From a virus, in the IMG/VR virus record IMGVR_UViG_3300029911_000001, positions 1-64,000 of that record: 64,000 nucleotides of DNA; one strand, given 5' to 3'. Each line of letters starts with the position of its first letter. Within the stretch, counting starts at the first letter, position 1. The notes beneath the pieces were generated by a model. That model ran no database searches. It had not been told where the DNA came from and saw only the letters and a program-made list of their open reading frames with translations. The position numbers and the translations under genes are program-made. Positions 41,844-55,588 of the stretch are shown here, piece after piece.

Positions 41844-42197
41844 CTATTTACCCTCGCTGAGGCGGATGACATCAATGGGAGTCACAGGAACTCTGTGCAA
41901 GTACCGCCATATTCGAACATCCTTAGCACTAGACAGGGAACCCGGTAGGAGTCGTTTGACCAAATCGAGGTCTTTCTTTATAAACTGGGTACCATGGATG
42001 CGGAGAACTATGGGGGCTCCCCCTGTTTTCCCCGCCTTGTTTTTGGCGAACCACTCAGCAACAGGTAGTGTGAAGTAGCTTCTTTCAACCAACCCCTCTC
42101 GAATAATCTCAGGCAGCACACTGTCGTCAGTTCCGTGATACAAGAACTCAGGAACTACGGACACCCCTTGTTTTAGAAACTTACTTTTCCAGTGCAT
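41844..42197 (-). CDS. Small ADP-ribosyltransferase-like protein
   Basis: 117 residues. LYHGTDDSVLPEIIREGLV resembles the His-Gly-Thr start of the ART fold, followed by SYFTLPVAEWFAKNKA and a strand APIVLRIHG, which is the usual order in small phage and KptA/DarT-related ARTs. The third catalytic residue is not clear. If active it would use NAD+ to modify RNA, DNA or protein, or remove a 2'-phosphate as KptA does. It lies among virion genes, so it could be packaged. It is also relevant to the NAD+ salvage genes downstream. Confidence 0.5.
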   Translation of the reverse strand: MHWKSKFLKQGVSVVPEFLYHGTDDSVLPEIIREGLVERSYFTLPVAEWFAKNKAGKTGGAPIVLRIHGTQFIKKDLDLVKRLLPGSLSSAKDVRIWRYLHRVPVTPIDVIRLSEGK

Positions 42198-42207
42198 ATC
42201 GCTCCTA

Positions 42208-42936
42208 CTAAGGTACTTGGGTAGTGCAAAAAGAGCAGTTCGGATTAATCAGACCACGATTGGTGTGCCAACGCACATGCTTGGCCTTTATAAGACTGCC
42301 GCTGGCAACACTAGCTGCGGCGGCTCTCTGCTTCGCTTCGCGAGAGCCTGACTTGCCTCCGAGGCTGTGAACTTCACGGGACATGCGGGTACGCATCTCC
42401 TCAGGGTGTTCGTCAGCCCACTTCCTACAAGCCTCGATACGAGTAGATTCATCTTGAAGGGCACGTTTGGTTTTTATTTTCTTCACTGAGTCTTCTGTGA
42501 GAAACGAGCCACCCTGCTCCTGTCTTGCTTGCTCAACAGCAGCTTTACGCTTCTCCTCTTGTTCAGCCGAACGCAGGAACACAGGGTTACCTACTTCCTT
42601 CAATTTGGCCTTGGTCTCTTCAGACATAGTGCCGGTGAACCCTTCTCCACCCCGGCAGATGTTGTAGCCGATTTCTGGATTGCGGGTGTCGTAAAGGGCG
42701 ATGAGTAAACGTTCGAGTCGGTCTAGCTCTTCTTTGGTCTCGATACCCTCGAAAAGAGGCTCTATCGACCAAACCTCCTTGGGGTGCTTACGCATGGAGT
42801 TGAAGAGATGGGATGAACCTCTGTTTCGCTTTGCATGAGAAAATTTGTCTTGAAGGTACTTCTTCAAGTTATTGCCCTTATGCTGGCCGATGTAAATCTT
42901 CCCTGTGATTGAGTTAGTGATGGCATAGATGTACAT
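42208..42936 (-). CDS. GIY-YIG homing endonuclease
   Basis: 242 residues from the ATG at 42936; the open frame to 42993 runs through the leader hairpin. Motifs: MYIYAITNSITGKIYIGQHK, a Lys/Arg stretch with HLFNSMRKHPKEVW, the Glu helix (KEELDRLERLLIALYD) and IGYNICRGGEGFTG. The C-terminal part holds NUMOD-like helices and a final Cys pair (NPNCSFCTTQV). It lies between two virion genes. Translation is probably limited by the hairpin at 42941-42965. Confidence 0.85.
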   Translation of the reverse strand: MYIYAITNSITGKIYIGQHKGNNLKKYLQDKFSHAKRNRGSSHLFNSMRKHPKEVWSIEPLFEGIETKEELDRLERLLIALYDTRNPEIGYNICRGGEGFTGTMSEETKAKLKEVGNPVFLRSAEQEEKRKAAVEQARQEQGGSFLTEDSVKKIKTKRALQDESTRIEACRKWADEHPEEMRTRMSREVHSLGGKSGSREAKQRAAAASVASGSLIKAKHVRWHTNRGLINPNCSFCTTQVP

Positions 42937-42940
42937 GAAA

Positions 42941-42965
42941 ATGGACTCCTCTTGTAGGAGTCCAT
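42941..42965 (-). promoter_or_regulatory. Leader hairpin hiding the homing gene's RBS
   Basis: ATGGACTCCT pairs with AGGAGTCCAT (10 bp, 5-base loop). The AGGAG ribosome binding site lies in the paired arm and the ATG follows four bases later. A perfect example of RBS occlusion. Confidence 0.8.
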
Positions 42966-43023
42966 AGTTGGGTTTCGATTTGTTATAAAACACAAATTAT
43001 TGAAACTAAACAACTTATCGTCG

Positions 43024-43952: not shown

Positions 43953-44549
43953 TTACACCTCCTGTAAGTGATGCCCAAACCGTTTTTTCTTGTGTATCTC
44001 AACCCAGTTTTTCTGAGGAAGAATGCGCCTAAGGGTTGGACTCAGTTCCATCATCTCTTCGTAGGAGAGGTAGTTGTTTTTCATTCGATTGCAAATAATA
44101 CATGCAACCACCAAGTTGTCCTCTACGTACCCCTCTTCATTGTTTTTTCGGTCGAGGTTAGTTCGAGCGTGACCTTTACCCAAATTGTGGGCTGTCCAAG
44201 TGACAGGTGAACCGCAGTAGTGACATACACTAACTGTAGTAAAAGTCAAGAATTGTTCGTAGGTAATAGTGAACGCGAGTCCGCGTGACGCCGCTTGCTG
44301 TTTAAGTCGGTGCCAAAGCCACTCATAGGGTCGCTTACGCAACCCTCGATTTCCGGGATAGTTTTTCTGGATTAGGTTTCGACCAGTGCAAGACCTACAC
44401 TTACCCTGCCGTCTTGATAAACGGCTAGATTCCACCCACAGTTCGTTAGAACAGTTATCGGTCGCACACTTGAACAAGTACATCACCTTATTCTGGCGAC
44501 CTTGGGGGCGTAGCTCTTTTCGTAGTGCGTCTGTGATATTCAAACTCAT
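43953..44549 (-). CDS. HNH homing endonuclease
   Basis: 198 residues. The N-terminal zinc ribbon KCATDNCSNELWVE ... CRSCTGRN is followed by the HNH core: SVCHYCGSPVTWTAHNLGKG, then NLDRKNNEEGYVEDNLVVAC with the conserved Asp-Arg, Asn and IICNRMKN. This is the common phage HNH homing type. The start codon is inside the stem of an 11-bp perfect hairpin. The gene lies directly after a virion gene, two bases beyond its start. Confidence 0.85.
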   Translation of the reverse strand: MSLNITDALRKELRPQGRQNKVMYLFKCATDNCSNELWVESSRLSRRQGKCRSCTGRNLIQKNYPGNRGLRKRPYEWLWHRLKQQAASRGLAFTITYEQFLTFTTVSVCHYCGSPVTWTAHNLGKGHARTNLDRKNNEEGYVEDNLVVACIICNRMKNNYLSYEEMMELSPTLRRILPQKNWVEIHKKKRFGHHLQEV

Positions 44550-47171: not shown

Positions 47172-48587
47172 TTACTCCGCGTCCTGAAAGTAGTCGAAGC
47201 TGGCTGCGGTACTGCGAACCTCATCCAGCGTGAAATCCTTCTTCAGTTCGCCGTTGAGGAACACGGTCTTGAGGTAGTTGCCGTAGCTGTCCTCTTCCGT
47301 GGTGTCGATAGTACGCCAGCCGCCGTCGCTGTTGAACAGGTTGAAGCGGCCACCGATGGATGCCTTCGAAGAATCCGTCTTCGGGTTCTTGAAGACCGGA
47401 CTCCACTGCCCTGCCCGGTTGATGGCCGAGCACTTGATAGCAAAGCGCATCGTGTCGCGGTTCTGCTGCTGCAACAGGGCACCGCCCATGCCGTAGCCCC
47501 AGTTGTCCATCGACCAACCCGACCGGGTGAGGGAGGAGTTGATGCGAAGGATGTTCTGATAGTTCACGCCGTCGCCCTGAATCGCACGAATCTGTGCCGG
47601 GAGAACCTTGTAGCCCTTGGCGTTGGTCTCGAAGCCGAACTTCTCCGCAACTGCGTTGAAGATGTCTTCGAGGACAACCACAGGGTCACCTGAGTCCGGG
47701 CGAAGCACGACAGTACCGTCCCGACGCAGAACCTTCTCACGAAGCTGGTTGCCGAAGATTTCAGCGACCGCGTTGTGCGTGTCGTAGCTGTCAACCACGC
47801 ACGCGAGAAGCGCAGTGGGCGACTTGTCGAGCATGTTCTCGTAGGCATCACGCTCGTTAGCCTGACCCCATGACGTGACCGTGCTGTGTTCCATAGCAGG
47901 GATAGAGAACCCCGGCATATCCTTGGCTCCGTAATAGTCACGTAGCAGTATGGCCGCTTCCATCGTGTCTGAGCCCATGAAGTTGACCAGATGTGCTGCT
48001 CCGCCGATAGCCGCCGATTCTTGCGAGGAGACGCCACGGGCTCCAAAGTCATGCAGCTTGAACGGCAAGCCAGCAGGAGTTCCGGTGCGAACCAAGTCCT
48101 TGCCAATTTCCTGCTTGATGTGCCATGACAGGGTGCCGACCGTGATGGGGTACCATGTTCCTCGGAGGATGATGGTCTCCGCCCAGTTTGTCAGCCAAGG
48201 AAACTCATCATCCGTGTTCTCAATGGTCAGCAGGGCGTTCTTCACAGAAACAACTGTACCCTCCGGCACCGCACGAATCTTGAGGGGAAGGCGACCGTCG
48301 TGCTTCTCCAGCAACCTGAGCCAACCCGTCGTATTGAATACCTTATCGGAGCCAAAGTGAGCCGCCGCAAATGCTTGAGCCTCGTCTACGTCTTCCTTAG
48401 TGAAGACCTTACCGACCAAGTAGGTCTTGAGGGTGTACTGAAGACCGAAGAACATCGTGTCCTTCCAAAAACCTCCGCGAGACATAAGGTGGGAGTAAAT
48501 AGTTCGAGTATCTGGGGGGTACTGAAAATGGTGGGAAAGCTTGTAACTGTCCGTTGTCAGTAGGGGGTTAACTCTCAGTTTTTGCAC
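47172..48587 (-). CDS. nampt: Nicotinamide phosphoribosyltransferase
   Basis: 471 residues, the normal length. It makes NMN from nicotinamide and PRPP in the cytoplasm. Signature stretches are all present: FKLHDFGARGVSSQESAAIG, HLVNFMGSDTMEA, SIPAMEHSTVTSWGQANERD (with the His that is phosphorylated in known enzymes), RPDSGDPV and IRAIQGDGVNYQN. Substrate-binding Asp/Arg positions look intact. It lies 1.6 kb from the NMN adenylyltransferase-Nudix gene in the same orientation, separated by a homing gene and a PEP-CTERM gene. The homing gene ends inside the first 20 bases of this gene. Together the two enzymes rebuild NAD+ in two steps. Confidence 0.92.
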   Translation of the reverse strand: MQKLRVNPLLTTDSYKLSHHFQYPPDTRTIYSHLMSRGGFWKDTMFFGLQYTLKTYLVGKVFTKEDVDEAQAFAAAHFGSDKVFNTTGWLRLLEKHDGRLPLKIRAVPEGTVVSVKNALLTIENTDDEFPWLTNWAETIILRGTWYPITVGTLSWHIKQEIGKDLVRTGTPAGLPFKLHDFGARGVSSQESAAIGGAAHLVNFMGSDTMEAAILLRDYYGAKDMPGFSIPAMEHSTVTSWGQANERDAYENMLDKSPTALLACVVDSYDTHNAVAEIFGNQLREKVLRRDGTVVLRPDSGDPVVVLEDIFNAVAEKFGFETNAKGYKVLPAQIRAIQGDGVNYQNILRINSSLTRSGWSMDNWGYGMGGALLQQQNRDTMRFAIKCSAINRAGQWSPVFKNPKTDSSKASIGGRFNLFNSDGGWRTIDTTEEDSYGNYLKTVFLNGELKKDFTLDEVRSTAASFDYFQDAE

Positions 48588-49497
48588 TTGTTTTCTCCTT
48601 CAAAAAAGCCTTTACATCATTTATGAAGAACGGGATTCTCACCATTTGGTATCCGTTATCTTCCGCCCACTGGTCTTTCAACTTGTCCAAACTTCGTATG
48701 CGTTCCAAGTCCTCGGGCTTCTTCCCTGTCAATACCTTGTAATGCTGTGCTCCATCAAATTCAATGAGTAGCTTCATCCCCTCAACACAGAAGTCATACC
48801 GTAGATGGCGACCTGACTTTGGGTTTATGAGTCCGGGGAAACACTTCTGTGGTTTGTACTTCCAACTCCACGCTTCCAAACACTTTCTAACTTCCTCCTC
48901 GCCCCACGAATAGTACCGTGAAAAGCATTTTGGACAACCTGCACCCCGAAGATGATTACTCGCCAGTTGTTTAAAGTCCCCATGCACCTTACATGTAATG
49001 GTAACCGATTTCAAAGAGTAGGTGTAACCTAGTCGGTCATAACCATAGCGGTCACCGTGGAGCCTTCGAGCTTCGATGATGAAATCTTCGGGGGACTTAC
49101 GCTTTTTATCGCTCCTCTGTACTATCCCACATTTTGGACAGCCACACCCATTCAAATGGTTATTCGGGGTCATCTCAAACCCCCCGTGAACCGGACAAAG
49201 AATTGTTACTTTGTCCAAAGTTGTGGTTCGGTATACAACGTTGGAATAGTCGTATAGATCACCATGCTTCTTCCTTGCTTTCTCGATGAACTTCTCAGTC
49301 GTTGATGTTGCTTCCTTCCGAGCACATTTAGGACAGTTCTGGCCCACTCTGTGACATGAGGGGAGTTGCCAAAACACACCATGTTCTCGACACACAATTT
49401 CTACCTTGCTACGTTTGTTTTTGTACACCAACCGGGAGTAATCATACCGCTCTCCGTGTACCTGTTGCACTGCTACCAAATACTCCTGTGTCGTCAT
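48568..49497 (-). CDS. Homing-type nuclease with zinc repeats
   Basis: 309 residues from the ATG at 49497; a GTG at 49503 is upstream. Three repeats follow the pattern AxxxHGxRYDYSxxxY...KVxIxCxxHGxFxQ...HxxGxGCPKC. The C-terminal domain has YDFCVEGMKLLIEFDGAQHY and a later Lys/Gln region (YQMVRIPFF), typical of PD-(D/E)xK/Vsr-like nucleases attached to such repeats. The gene is inserted just before nampt and overlaps its start by 20 bases. Its start lies in a hairpin. Confidence 0.75.
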   Translation of the reverse strand: MTTQEYLVAVQQVHGERYDYSRLVYKNKRSKVEIVCREHGVFWQLPSCHRVGQNCPKCARKEATSTTEKFIEKARKKHGDLYDYSNVVYRTTTLDKVTILCPVHGGFEMTPNNHLNGCGCPKCGIVQRSDKKRKSPEDFIIEARRLHGDRYGYDRLGYTYSLKSVTITCKVHGDFKQLASNHLRGAGCPKCFSRYYSWGEEEVRKCLEAWSWKYKPQKCFPGLINPKSGRHLRYDFCVEGMKLLIEFDGAQHYKVLTGKKPEDLERIRSLDKLKDQWAEDNGYQMVRIPFFINDVKAFLKEKTSAKTES

Positions 49498-49524
49498 ACC
49501 CACCTCTAACTAAGGGGTGGGTAT
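49496..49524 (-). promoter_or_regulatory. Hairpin over the start of the nampt-linked homing gene
   Basis: ATACCCACC pairs with GGTGGGTAT (9 bp). The GAGGTG ribosome binding site and the first two bases of the ATG at 49497 are inside the stem, so translation should be repressed. Confidence 0.75.
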
Positions 49525-49537
49525 TGCAAACAGTAAC

Positions 49538-50115
49538 TTAGTTTATTCTCAAATACCTATTCCTTGACACGTAACCCAGCCCTAGCAGCCCTGTGCCCAG
49601 CAGCAGCAAGGAGGAAGGCTCAGGAGTCGGGGCTGGGATGGGGACAGCGAAGGTGTCCAGTGGCGTGACTGACAGGCTTACGATCCCCCCTTCGGGTGTG
49701 TCCCCACTCATGAATGAAATCCAGTCCAGCCCGTCCGCCTCAAAGCCCTCCGAAGTGCGTGTAAGTCCAGCGTATAGGGAATACTCCAGACCGCGTTGTA
49801 GCCCGTAAATGCAACCCCCGTCGCCGCCTCAAACCACGGGCTGGAAGCAGTCAACACGTTGTTGTTGAATGTCGTACCGGGGGCTGACAACACCATGGAG
49901 GCAGTATGCTGGGCATCCGATATCACACCCGTGAGTCCTGTGATAATTCCGGCTGAATTGGTTGTGAAGGTTCCGCGTCCTGCGAGGGGTAGATAGGGGA
50001 TACCGTCAGGCGTGTCGGCTGAATTGAAGAAAAAAGAATACTGACTGGCAGAGGCTGCTGGAGTTCCTAGTACAACCATCAAGGTCAAGGCAAAAGAAAG
50101 TAGGGCGGTTTTCAT
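49538..50115 (-). pseudogene. PEP-CTERM secreted protein, reading frame broken by one base
   Basis: Starts MKTALLSFALTLMVVLGTPAASA (Sec signal) and continues as a beta-rich secreted domain (YSFFFNSADTPDGIPYLPLA ... GTTFNNNVLTASSPWFEAAT). At about 49790 the first frame runs into an unlikely end (stop at 49708). The other frame continues as EYSLYAGLTRTSEGFEADGL and ends with PAPTPEPSSLLLLGTGLLGL and an Arg-rich tail, a textbook PEP-CTERM sorting signal. Adding one G in the TGGAG at the junction (AVW to EYS) restores a single protein of about 190 residues. This could be a real mutation, a sequencing slip or programmed frameshifting. Exosortase substrates of this kind are host-type proteins, rarely seen in phages. 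Confidence 0.75.
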
Positions 50116-50162
50116 TGTTTTATCCCTTTCATTATTTTATTTAGTTCCCAAGAAACCTCTGG

Positions 50163-51164
50163 TTATTTCAATCCTTCCGCTGCGAGTTCCTTGGGCGTCA
50201 TGTGCGTGTAGGTGACGTTCATCCGGCCAACCTCGATGGTGTCCCACACGTACAGGCCGAAGTGCTTGTACACGACGGGGAAGACACTCTCCCGGTGCGT
50301 GTCGATGAGCAGTTCTGCCTTCATCTGGTCGATGGGAAACCACTTAACCTCTTCAATGTCATCGCCAGCAATCGCATTGAGCGAGGGTGACTCCGCCGCG
50401 AAGACGAGCGACTTGATTTGGTCGGGCTCCCCTTTCCACCGCCAGTCAGGGATGAGAGCAGAGCCGATGAACTGAGGTTCATTCACCACGAGGCTGGTCT
50501 CCTCCATGGCTTCACGGGCAGCGTCGTACTCGTAGCTGGGGGTGTAGGGCTCAGAGAAGCCACCGATGAACCGCCACTGCGTCTCACCCGGCTTGCGACC
50601 GAGCAGGAACAGCGTTTTGGTGTCGTCGTTCTCCGGCTTGTGGTAAATCACCACGTCCACCGTCGCCTTCACAGCAGGACGGATGTTGGTCATGGCGTAG
50701 ATGACGCCAGCACGGAACTCCGGGGACTCCATGACCGTGTTGGTAATTTTCGCACGGATGGTGGTGCCGCTGATGCCGTCGAGCGTGTTGGGGAGAGTCA
50801 GTTCAATCGGCTTGTACGCCCCATGGTAGTGCGGTACGAAAGAATCGCGAGAGCCGTACAGCGTCACGTCGCCGTAGTCCACTACGTCACGAATAGCCCT
50901 GTCCAAGTTCCGCGACCACGTTGCATCTTCCTTGGTGTCGGTGAGGGGGAAAATCATGAAGTCGGGATACGCAGCCTGAACCATCGCCTTGCGAGTCTCG
51001 AAGTCGAGGGGGTTGTTGTAGGTCGAGCCAATGGACTTCTGACCGAGGAACAGAATGACCTTGCTGTGCCGTGCCCTTACTTCATCGAACAGGGCTCTGT
51101 GTCCAGCGTGAAGAGCATCGACTTGGCAGCGTGCGACAAGAACGCCGTAGTTAGGCTTTTGCAT
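50163..51164 (-). CDS. nadM: Bifunctional NMN adenylyltransferase/Nudix hydrolase
   Basis: 333 residues. The first half is a nucleotidyltransferase (GVLVARCQVDALHAGHRALF with the His-x-Gly-His motif, and ISGTTIRAKI). It turns NMN and ATP into NAD+. The second half is a Nudix hydrolase: GGFSEPYTPSYEYDAAREAM plus EETSLV fits the Nudix box with Ser in place of the usual Gly. This fusion occurs in bacterial NadM-Nudix proteins, where the Nudix part often hydrolyses ADP-ribose. It works with the Nampt at 47172-48587. The start overlaps the 212-residue upstream gene. Confidence 0.9.
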   Translation of the reverse strand: MQKPNYGVLVARCQVDALHAGHRALFDEVRARHSKVILFLGQKSIGSTYNNPLDFETRKAMVQAAYPDFMIFPLTDTKEDATWSRNLDRAIRDVVDYGDVTLYGSRDSFVPHYHGAYKPIELTLPNTLDGISGTTIRAKITNTVMESPEFRAGVIYAMTNIRPAVKATVDVVIYHKPENDDTKTLFLLGRKPGETQWRFIGGFSEPYTPSYEYDAAREAMEETSLVVNEPQFIGSALIPDWRWKGEPDQIKSLVFAAESPSLNAIAGDDIEEVKWFPIDQMKAELLIDTHRESVFPVVYKHFGLYVWDTIEVGRMNVTYTHMTPKELAAEGLK

Positions 51165-51789
51165 TACTTTCCTCCATGTTGAGTTCCAATATCCTTACGC
51201 CCCGGTTCAATCCGTTGAGCACTCTGCCGAGCCGATAATCAACACCACTTGAGGGCACGTTGAATAGCTTAGCCAGTTCGGTGGTTTTTGTTACCGCTGG
51301 TCGTCCATCCAAACCAAATGCTCTGACTGCGAGGTCGGCAGCGATTGGCTTGTATCCCGCCTTCACAATGCCATACACCTTGGCGAAAATCGCCAGCTTC
51401 TCACTCCGAGTGGGGTTGTAATTTGGTTTGTGCCATGACCGCTCACCCGCCGCACGAAACATAGCATTGAGGCTGGCCGATGAGGGGTTCAAAGAAATAG
51501 CAACCTGCTCCGCCTCACGTAGCACCCGCTCATACTCCGCCTTCTCAATAGCCTCCGCCCTCTCAGCTTGTTTGCGTTTCTCCTGAACTACCTTTTTACG
51601 TTCATCCAGTTCATCGAGGATTGTACGTAGAGCTTCCCTTTCCTTTTTCAGAGAGACCACCGATTGGTAGAAGTCGAACAGAGCCGAACATCCCTCGCAC
51701 AGTATCAACTCAGGAGGGGTCTCCGGGTTGAACTCTGGGTGCTTGGGACACGTCGAACTCCATATCGAGACACCAAAGGGTTTCATCAT
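51151..51789 (-). CDS. Protein with coiled coil and HTH-like end
   Basis: 212 residues. A Cys/His cluster at the N-terminus (CPKHPEFNPETPPELILCEG with CSALF) may bind zinc. Residues 45-95 are a strong coiled coil (Lys/Glu/Ala). The C-terminal 70 residues contain ELAKLFNVPSSGVDYRLGRV, resembling a helix-turn-helix. A regulator or adaptor is possible. Both ends overlap neighbours: ATGA with the 55-residue gene, 14 bases with nadM. Confidence 0.6.
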   Translation of the reverse strand: MMKPFGVSIWSSTCPKHPEFNPETPPELILCEGCSALFDFYQSVVSLKKEREALRTILDELDERKKVVQEKRKQAERAEAIEKAEYERVLREAEQVAISLNPSSASLNAMFRAAGERSWHKPNYNPTRSEKLAIFAKVYGIVKAGYKPIAADLAVRAFGLDGRPAVTKTTELAKLFNVPSSGVDYRLGRVLNGLNRGVRILELNMEESNAKA

Positions 51790-55183: not shown

Positions 55184-55588
55184 TTACTCCTTGACTCTAC
55201 TTATGGCTGGCTTGTTCTCGTAGGTTCCCCAAAAGGTCTTACCTTCTAGGTAATACTGCCAAGCCGAGTCAAACTGACAGTTATCTGGAGCAGCAACAAA
55301 CATCGGAGCCATATCGGCTGCGGTGTACTTCGAGTGCCCGCATCCAATCTGCGTTATTTGGAAAGCCAGTTCAGGGTGGGCGATAGCGTAGGCGATGAAC
55401 TCGTCCACGAATCCCTTGATGCGGTCGATAGGCAGGATAGCCAGCTTGGCATCCTTGGTGGGGATAGCATAACTGTTGCCATGGTGACCATTACCGCGAC
55501 CATACTTGGCCCCGTGTTGTCGAGCGGCGATAAGAGCCGCACCGAGTCCGTGGGCTCCTGCTAGGTTAGAGCCGAAGACAAATATCAT
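55184..55588 (-). CDS. A1S_2505-like (macro-like) phage protein
   Basis: 134 residues from the ATG at 55588, which overlaps the stop of the upstream gene; a GTG at 55606 is also in frame. IFVFGSNLAGAHGLGAALIA, KYGRGNGHHGNSYAIPTKDA, FVDEFIAYAIAHPEL and QITQIGCGHSKYTAADMAPM match the family annotated as A1S_2505 phage non-structural protein, which looks like a macro domain (Gly-rich ligand loops). Macro domains bind or hydrolyse ADP-ribose or related nucleotides. Given the Nampt, NadM-Nudix and ART-like genes, an NAD/ADP-ribose link is attractive but unproven. Confidence 0.7.
   Translation of the reverse strand: MIFVFGSNLAGAHGLGAALIAARQHGAKYGRGNGHHGNSYAIPTKDAKLAILPIDRIKGFVDEFIAYAIAHPELAFQITQIGCGHSKYTAADMAPMFVAAPDNCQFDSAWQYYLEGKTFWGTYENKPAISRVKE

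Follow-up and report, generated by a model that had tools for sequence, protein, structure and literature searches.

The window analysed here is a stretch of 64,000 bases, comprising bases 1-64000 of the 231,108-base IMG/VR virus record IMGVR_UViG_3300029911_000001. Its minus strand carries a predicted nicotinamide adenine dinucleotide (NAD+) salvage pair: a gene for nicotinamide phosphoribosyltransferase (Nampt) and a gene for a bifunctional nicotinamide mononucleotide (NMN) adenylyltransferase (NMNAT)-Nudix protein (NadM-Nudix). In the direction of transcription, NadM-Nudix is followed by a PEP-CTERM gene (50115-49538), an HNH homing endonuclease gene and then Nampt (Table 1). An initial annotation of this DNA had placed the open reading frames (ORFs) of both enzymes at exactly these coordinates and had described them as separated by a homing and a PEP-CTERM gene. 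Both intervening genes were recovered (phrog_559 and TIGR02595, respectively), but the PEP-CTERM gene is broken.

The Nampt and NadM-Nudix genes

The Nampt product matched Pfam families NAMPT_N (8.5e-32, 109.8 bits; cut-off 25) and NAPRTase (1.5e-52, 179.2 bits; cut-off 20.8), phrog_448 (1.7e-153), and NCBIfam PRK09198 (574.8 bits; cut-off 405). It was aligned with Xanthomonas Nampt 7yqo (E 1e-131) and with mammalian Nampt 2g95. All catalytic and substrate positions checked were kept in these alignments: D13, Y15, F182, R185, D207, H235, R297, D299, G339, D340, and R378. We take H235 to be the equivalent of human H247, the catalytic histidine, and D207 that of human D219, the nicotinamide-selecting aspartate; D13/Y15, F182/R185, R297/D299, G339/D340, and R378 are presumably residues that bind nicotinamide or phosphoribosyl pyrophosphate (PRPP). 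From its sequence, 47172-48587 is assigned as Nampt. This is a common gene, with relatives in 1908 of 50,697 phage records.

Namat, the phosphoribosyltransferase of the NARP1 route, is homologous to Nampt and has the same catalytic core (PMC12774641). A NARP1-type route, in which the window enzyme would be a Namat using ADP-ribose-pyrophosphate with an Adps partner, was considered on this basis. However, the Namat signature GSX-Phi-X-Phi-X-Phi-TRD (aromatics at 3 and 7; PMC12774641) is absent from the window protein, which has GGALLQQQNRD, and the PRPS/Adps-type N-domain PF13793 had no match in the 231 kb record, which may be incomplete. The Namat identity was therefore rejected, and a NARP1-type route is extremely improbable. 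The absence of both the signature and a PRPS/Adps-like gene argues for NARP2, the second route with Nampt and NMNAT, in agreement with the initial annotation.

NadM-Nudix matched Pfam NUDIX at 5.9e-12. Its CTP_transf_like score was 20.4 bits, slightly below the 21-bit cut-off (22 bits in the whole-genome search). The NMNAT half matched weakly in single-sequence searches, and tblastn found relatives in only 8 phage records, 5 of them across most of the protein. A profile built from 12 relatives matched Francisella NadM (2qjt/2r5w) end to end in hmmsearch (3.4e-23, profile positions 6-299), and also matched 2qjo (1.4e-17). The AlphaFold model had a predicted local distance difference test (pLDDT) score of 88.7, and its top Foldseek matches were bifunctional NadM structures. 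VIA-align superposed it on 2qjt with Z 15.3 over 285 residues and a root-mean-square deviation (rmsd) of 12.0, a value presumably due to different placement of the two domains relative to each other. The N-terminal domain of the model aligned with archaeal NMNAT 1m8g (Z 14.2, rmsd 2.5, 147 residues), and the C-terminal domain had structural matches to many Nudix hydrolases.

The active-site motifs of both halves are intact: HAGH at 19-22 ((H/T)xGH), ISGTTIR at 131-137 (ISxTxxR), and a Nudix box at 201-225 containing REAMEE with R217, E218, E221, and E222. Across 61 relatives, R12, R58, and R137 were invariant and H22, E218, E221, and E222 nearly so. The clade has 2 extra residues ahead of HxGH, which alter the GRFQ-HxGH spacing. 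By fold and motifs, we file 50163-51164 as a predicted bifunctional NadM-Nudix of a divergent clade. The initial annotation had claimed that the motifs of both enzymes are complete. The motifs and the full-length match to 2qjt/2r5w bear this out for NadM-Nudix, as do family scores far above cut-offs and catalytic residues conserved relative to known structures for Nampt.

Conserved pairing and the segment between the genes

Members of the viral NadM-Nudix clade are encoded by at least 109 IMG/VR contigs; flanks were read at 80 viral loci. Tunturi_5, an acidobacterial jumbo phage (PMC11924767), is among the members, as are huge uncultured phages. Nampt was present in the flank at 77 of the 80 loci, nearly always downstream (3′) on the same strand, and usually NadM-Nudix is followed directly by Nampt. 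The gene set that the initial annotation had proposed to look for in related phages was thus found. In bacterial genomes, 132 stretches contained a NadM-Nudix relative, mostly in Bacteroidota and often on megabase contigs; NadM-Nudix and Nampt were adjacent in 73 of the 80 best of these loci. This distribution and pairing indicate that the two genes form a widespread, predicted salvage operon common to bacteria and phages.

In a tree of the clade, bacterial and viral sequences were interleaved and deep forks were weak; the window protein fell within a ten-member viral clade with support of 100/100. A single acquisition of the clade by phages was considered and dropped because the tree, with its weak deep forks, requires several changes of label. 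L183 (QHZW01000302), a short contig binned in an Acidobacteria metagenome-assembled genome, is probably a phage contig; its Nampt (part of the gene) is 65% identical to that of the window. Tunturi_5 and this contig hint at an acidobacterial host for the window phage.

In six close relatives (L036, L037, L038, L040, L043, and L045), the stop codon of NadM-Nudix lies within the start of Nampt, with an overlap of 20 bases; two others (L035 and L044) have an overlap shorter by a few bases. The HNH gene of the window has its stop codon (TAA) at the same place, which gives an identical 20-base overlap with the Nampt start. Because the HNH gene repeats the overlap that NadM-Nudix has in close relatives, the PEP-CTERM/HNH segment (~1.6 kb) appears from the sequence to be a later insertion just upstream of Nampt, outside the pathway. 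A different insert was found at the same junction in one relative (L041). The PEP-CTERM gene, which would encode an exosortase-sorted protein, is frameshifted near 49765: its motif (TIGR02595, 24.1 bits; cut-off 16; ~49556-49627) is out of frame with the N-terminal ORF, in which neither a motif nor a family match was found. A search of viral contigs for relatives of this gene returned the same phage only. The sequence of 49481-51250 was identical in 2 further IMG/VR contigs, which are possibly not independent samples of the phage.

The genome seemingly contains many homing endonuclease genes, both GIY-YIG-like and HNH-like, with further examples at 42208-42993 and 43953-44549 of the window and at L020:14682-15422 and L022:8443-9093. 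The first resembles a group I intron endonuclease in NCBIfam (42.8 bits, below its cut-off); 43953-44549 had no NCBIfam match.

Proposed salvage route and ADP-ribose-related genes

The chemistry of the Nampt, NMNAT, and ADP-ribose Nudix families is established. If both window proteins are catalytically active and expressed in infection, Nampt would convert nicotinamide and PRPP to NMN, and the N-terminal domain of NadM-Nudix would convert NMN and ATP to NAD+. The Nudix domain would most likely hydrolyze ADP-ribose, yielding AMP and ribose-5-phosphate; from the latter, host PRPP synthetase could make PRPP and so feed Nampt. Nicotinamide and ADP-ribose, both products of NADases, would thereby be recycled to NAD+. 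Our observations are that both genes are present and carry their motifs, that NadM-Nudix has a fold match, and that the pairing is conserved. On this basis the two genes very probably constitute a phage-encoded nicotinamide salvage route, with the predicted purpose of keeping NAD+ up in infection, also when NAD+-depleting defences act.

Published work shows that phages counter defences of this kind by reconstituting NAD+ (PMC12774641), and NARP2 is described as countering NAD+ depletion in work that later papers cite (Osterman 2024, via PMC11984713 and PMC12300627). NARP2 proteins were found in vibrio phage virions (PMC12028318), and in one survey every NadM-bearing phage also had NadV (PMC9503650). 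By analogy, it is plausible that the window pair evades such defences, for which the initial annotation had named Thoeris and TIR-based systems. A PADLOC search gave no match for the pair.

The pair could instead be a general metabolic aid that raises NAD+ for replication (e.g. for NAD+-consuming phage enzymes) in NAD+-poor hosts, with defence evasion incidental. On Bacteroidota chromosomes the same clade is a simple salvage operon of two genes, and Nampt by itself is present in more phage records than would be expected of a specialised counter-defence. On the other side, phages have been rescued from NAD+-depleting defences by such pathways in published tests, and ADP-ribose-related genes lie between NadM-Nudix and Nampt in some relatives. 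We regard the metabolic explanation as a serious candidate, if short of probable. It and the salvage route are not exclusive: the enzymology is common to both, and purpose alone differs.

Several observations weigh against a salvage route of the proposed kind. Since the same operon occurs on bacterial chromosomes, the pair need not be an anti-defence device. The window NadM-Nudix has C in place of F13, in an RFQ motif that is otherwise conserved, and the Nudix loop of its clade is longer by 1 residue. Its score of 45.5 bits is below every NCBIfam NadM-Nudix equivalog model (cut-off 397), a cut-off that is a naming threshold for other clades and no biochemical criterion. In view of these three features, its rates or substrates may differ from those of known NadM. 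Nampt starts with GTG in the window and with ATG in the compared relatives, and the PEP-CTERM/HNH insertion may reduce co-expression of the pair. The GTG start, the insertion, and its frameshifted cargo would also fit decay of one or both genes since the operon was split. However, neither ORF is truncated, the motifs of both are intact, and a Shine-Dalgarno-like AAGGAG ahead of Nampt is preserved despite the insertion; decay is thus quite improbable, and a working salvage pair is the preferred reading.

A gap of at least 300 bases separates NadM-Nudix from Nampt in 23 of 60 non-redundant loci. The genes found in this slot (Table 1) include ADP-ribose-related families, two kinds of protein with no obvious link to NAD+ and, in some relatives, homing endonucleases too. 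ADP-ribose-related Pfam families accounted for 7 of 48 slot ORFs vs. at least 4 of 100 flank ORFs (Fisher one-sided p 0.028), the flank figure being from 25 of 46 families listed and possibly low. Because p was 0.2 after near-duplicate loci were collapsed, enrichment in the slot is not claimed.

In two relatives (L095:101-2200 and L100:5989-8493), the HxGH histidine of NadM-Nudix is lost (HAEQ and HSEQ, respectively). The slot gene before Nampt in both encodes a second, NadD-like adenylyltransferase domain, with HEGH in L095, HDAH in L100, and SSTAIR in both. By its sequence, this domain apparently compensates for the broken NMNAT motif, as would be predicted if NMNAT activity is required in the operon. 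L095 and L100 are close relatives and therefore count as one evolutionary case. A CinA-like assignment for the first half of their slot gene was set aside as without Pfam support.

By analogy with RyDEP in NARP1, the slot in the large-phage clade might collect either replacement adenylyltransferases or enzymes that act on immune signals derived from ADP-ribose, the window slot being taken by homing and PEP-CTERM genes; we consider this idea rather doubtful. The immune-signal enzymes that we tentatively name for it are ADP-ribosylglycohydrolase, SLOG, NADAR, DarG-like macro, and deoxyribosyltransferase-like proteins.

Table 1. Genes of the window locus and genes lying between NadM-Nudix and Nampt in relatives (L numbers denote loci)
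Feature	Position	Strand	Evidence or remark
Nampt (nicotinamide phosphoribosyltransferase, NadV), 471 aa	window 47172-48587	-	GTG start; Pfam, PHROG, NCBIfam matches and conserved catalytic positions
HNH homing endonuclease gene	window 48568-49503	-	phrog_559, 6e-56; between Nampt and NadM-Nudix
PEP-CTERM gene, C-terminal part	window 49538-49765	-	TIGR02595, 24.1 bits; other frame, motif PEPSSLLLLGTGLLGLGY
PEP-CTERM gene, N-terminal part	window 49708-50115	-	ORF, no family match; MKTALLSFALTLMVVLGTPAASAS, signal-peptide-like by eye
NadM-Nudix (putative bifunctional NMN adenylyltransferase-Nudix), 333 aa	window 50163-51164	-	Full-length match to 2qjt/2r5w/2qjo and motifs
ADP-ribosylglycohydrolase	L104:7548-8426; L105		In slot
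SLOG/YAcAr	L080:6885-7217; L087; L089		In slot
NADAR	L074:7306-7788		In slot
DarG-like macro protein	L063:8456-8983		In slot
Deoxyribosyltransferase-like protein	L082:7340-7783		In slot
Class I/II aminotransferase	L048:7566-8669; L049:6903-7997; L059:6924-8012		In slot; no obvious NAD+ link
Glutamate-synthase-like FMN protein	L071; L078; L085; L087		In slot; no obvious NAD+ link

The initial annotation had also suggested a wider NAD+ and ADP-ribose theme, based on an ADP-ribosyltransferase (ART)-like gene at 41844 and a macro-like gene at 55184. The theme stands in part: a NADAR gene and 3 more Nudix genes are present in the 231 kb genome, but the macro assignment fails and the ART assignment is weak. 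The gene at 41844 weakly matches the C-terminal half of KptA/Tpt1 (PHROG, NCBIfam) and is at best a fragment; a full KptA was rejected, as the genome search gave no PF01885 match at 1e-3. The gene at 55184 belongs to the A1S_2505 family (142 bits, NCBIfam), and a search for Pfam Macro through the genome gave no match. The NADAR domain protein (PF08719, 66.2 bits) is encoded at 190493-191020 of the 231 kb record (L026:6493-7020). NADAR, NadM, and NadV have already been described in common phage neighbourhoods (PMC9503650). Elsewhere in the record, 79654-81339 (L020:15654-17339) encodes a protein of 561 aa in which a C-terminal Nudix domain is joined to ~400 residues without Pfam match, and 72304-73089 (L020:8304-9089) encodes a protein of 261 aa that has an ART-like HGT motif (VYHGTT) but matched nothing in Pfam, NCBIfam, or PADLOC.

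Comparison with known systems

The window pair adds one phage to a known pathway, and its function is ordinary. The comparison may be useful in that it maps a divergent NadM-Nudix clade missed by curated models and by plain similarity searches with KVP40-type NatV, and records this NadM-Nudix/Nampt clade as an operon on Bacteroidota chromosomes. The slot genes of relatives provide concrete candidates for degrading ADP-ribose-based immune signals.

As far as NARP2 is described in the papers that cite it (Osterman et al. 2024, via PMC11984713, PMC12300627, and PMC12028318), the window pair has the same two enzyme activities by family and is likewise found in large phages. It differs in that its NadM-Nudix belongs to another, divergent clade and the genes are split by an insertion. 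The KVP40-type NadV and NatV share the domain order NMNAT-Nudix and the Nampt partner, and a NatV-type query found relatives in 456 phage records. However, the window protein reached only 3 NatV-type records (tblastn, 1e-5), over its first 107 residues and with ~31% identity.

Francisella NadM (2qjt/2r5w) and 2qjo, an NMNAT/ADP-ribose pyrophosphatase, resemble the window protein in full-length profile and fold match and in both sets of active-site motifs. Identity in structural alignments is 16-19%, and the altered GRFQ-HxGH spacing and the Nudix loop with one more residue set the window protein apart. The chromosomal operons of Bacteroidota (Chitinophaga, Mucilaginibacter, and others) belong to the same clade and have the same gene order, usually with adjacent genes; in contrast to the window pair, they are cellular, compact, and without insertion, and their proteins are 33-45% identical to the window protein. 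RyDEP in the mycobacteriophage NARP1 operon (PMC13232231) is likewise a gene inserted within a phage NAD+ synthesis operon, but RyDEP degrades cyclic ADP-ribose signals, whereas the insert in the window consists of a homing gene and a broken PEP-CTERM gene.

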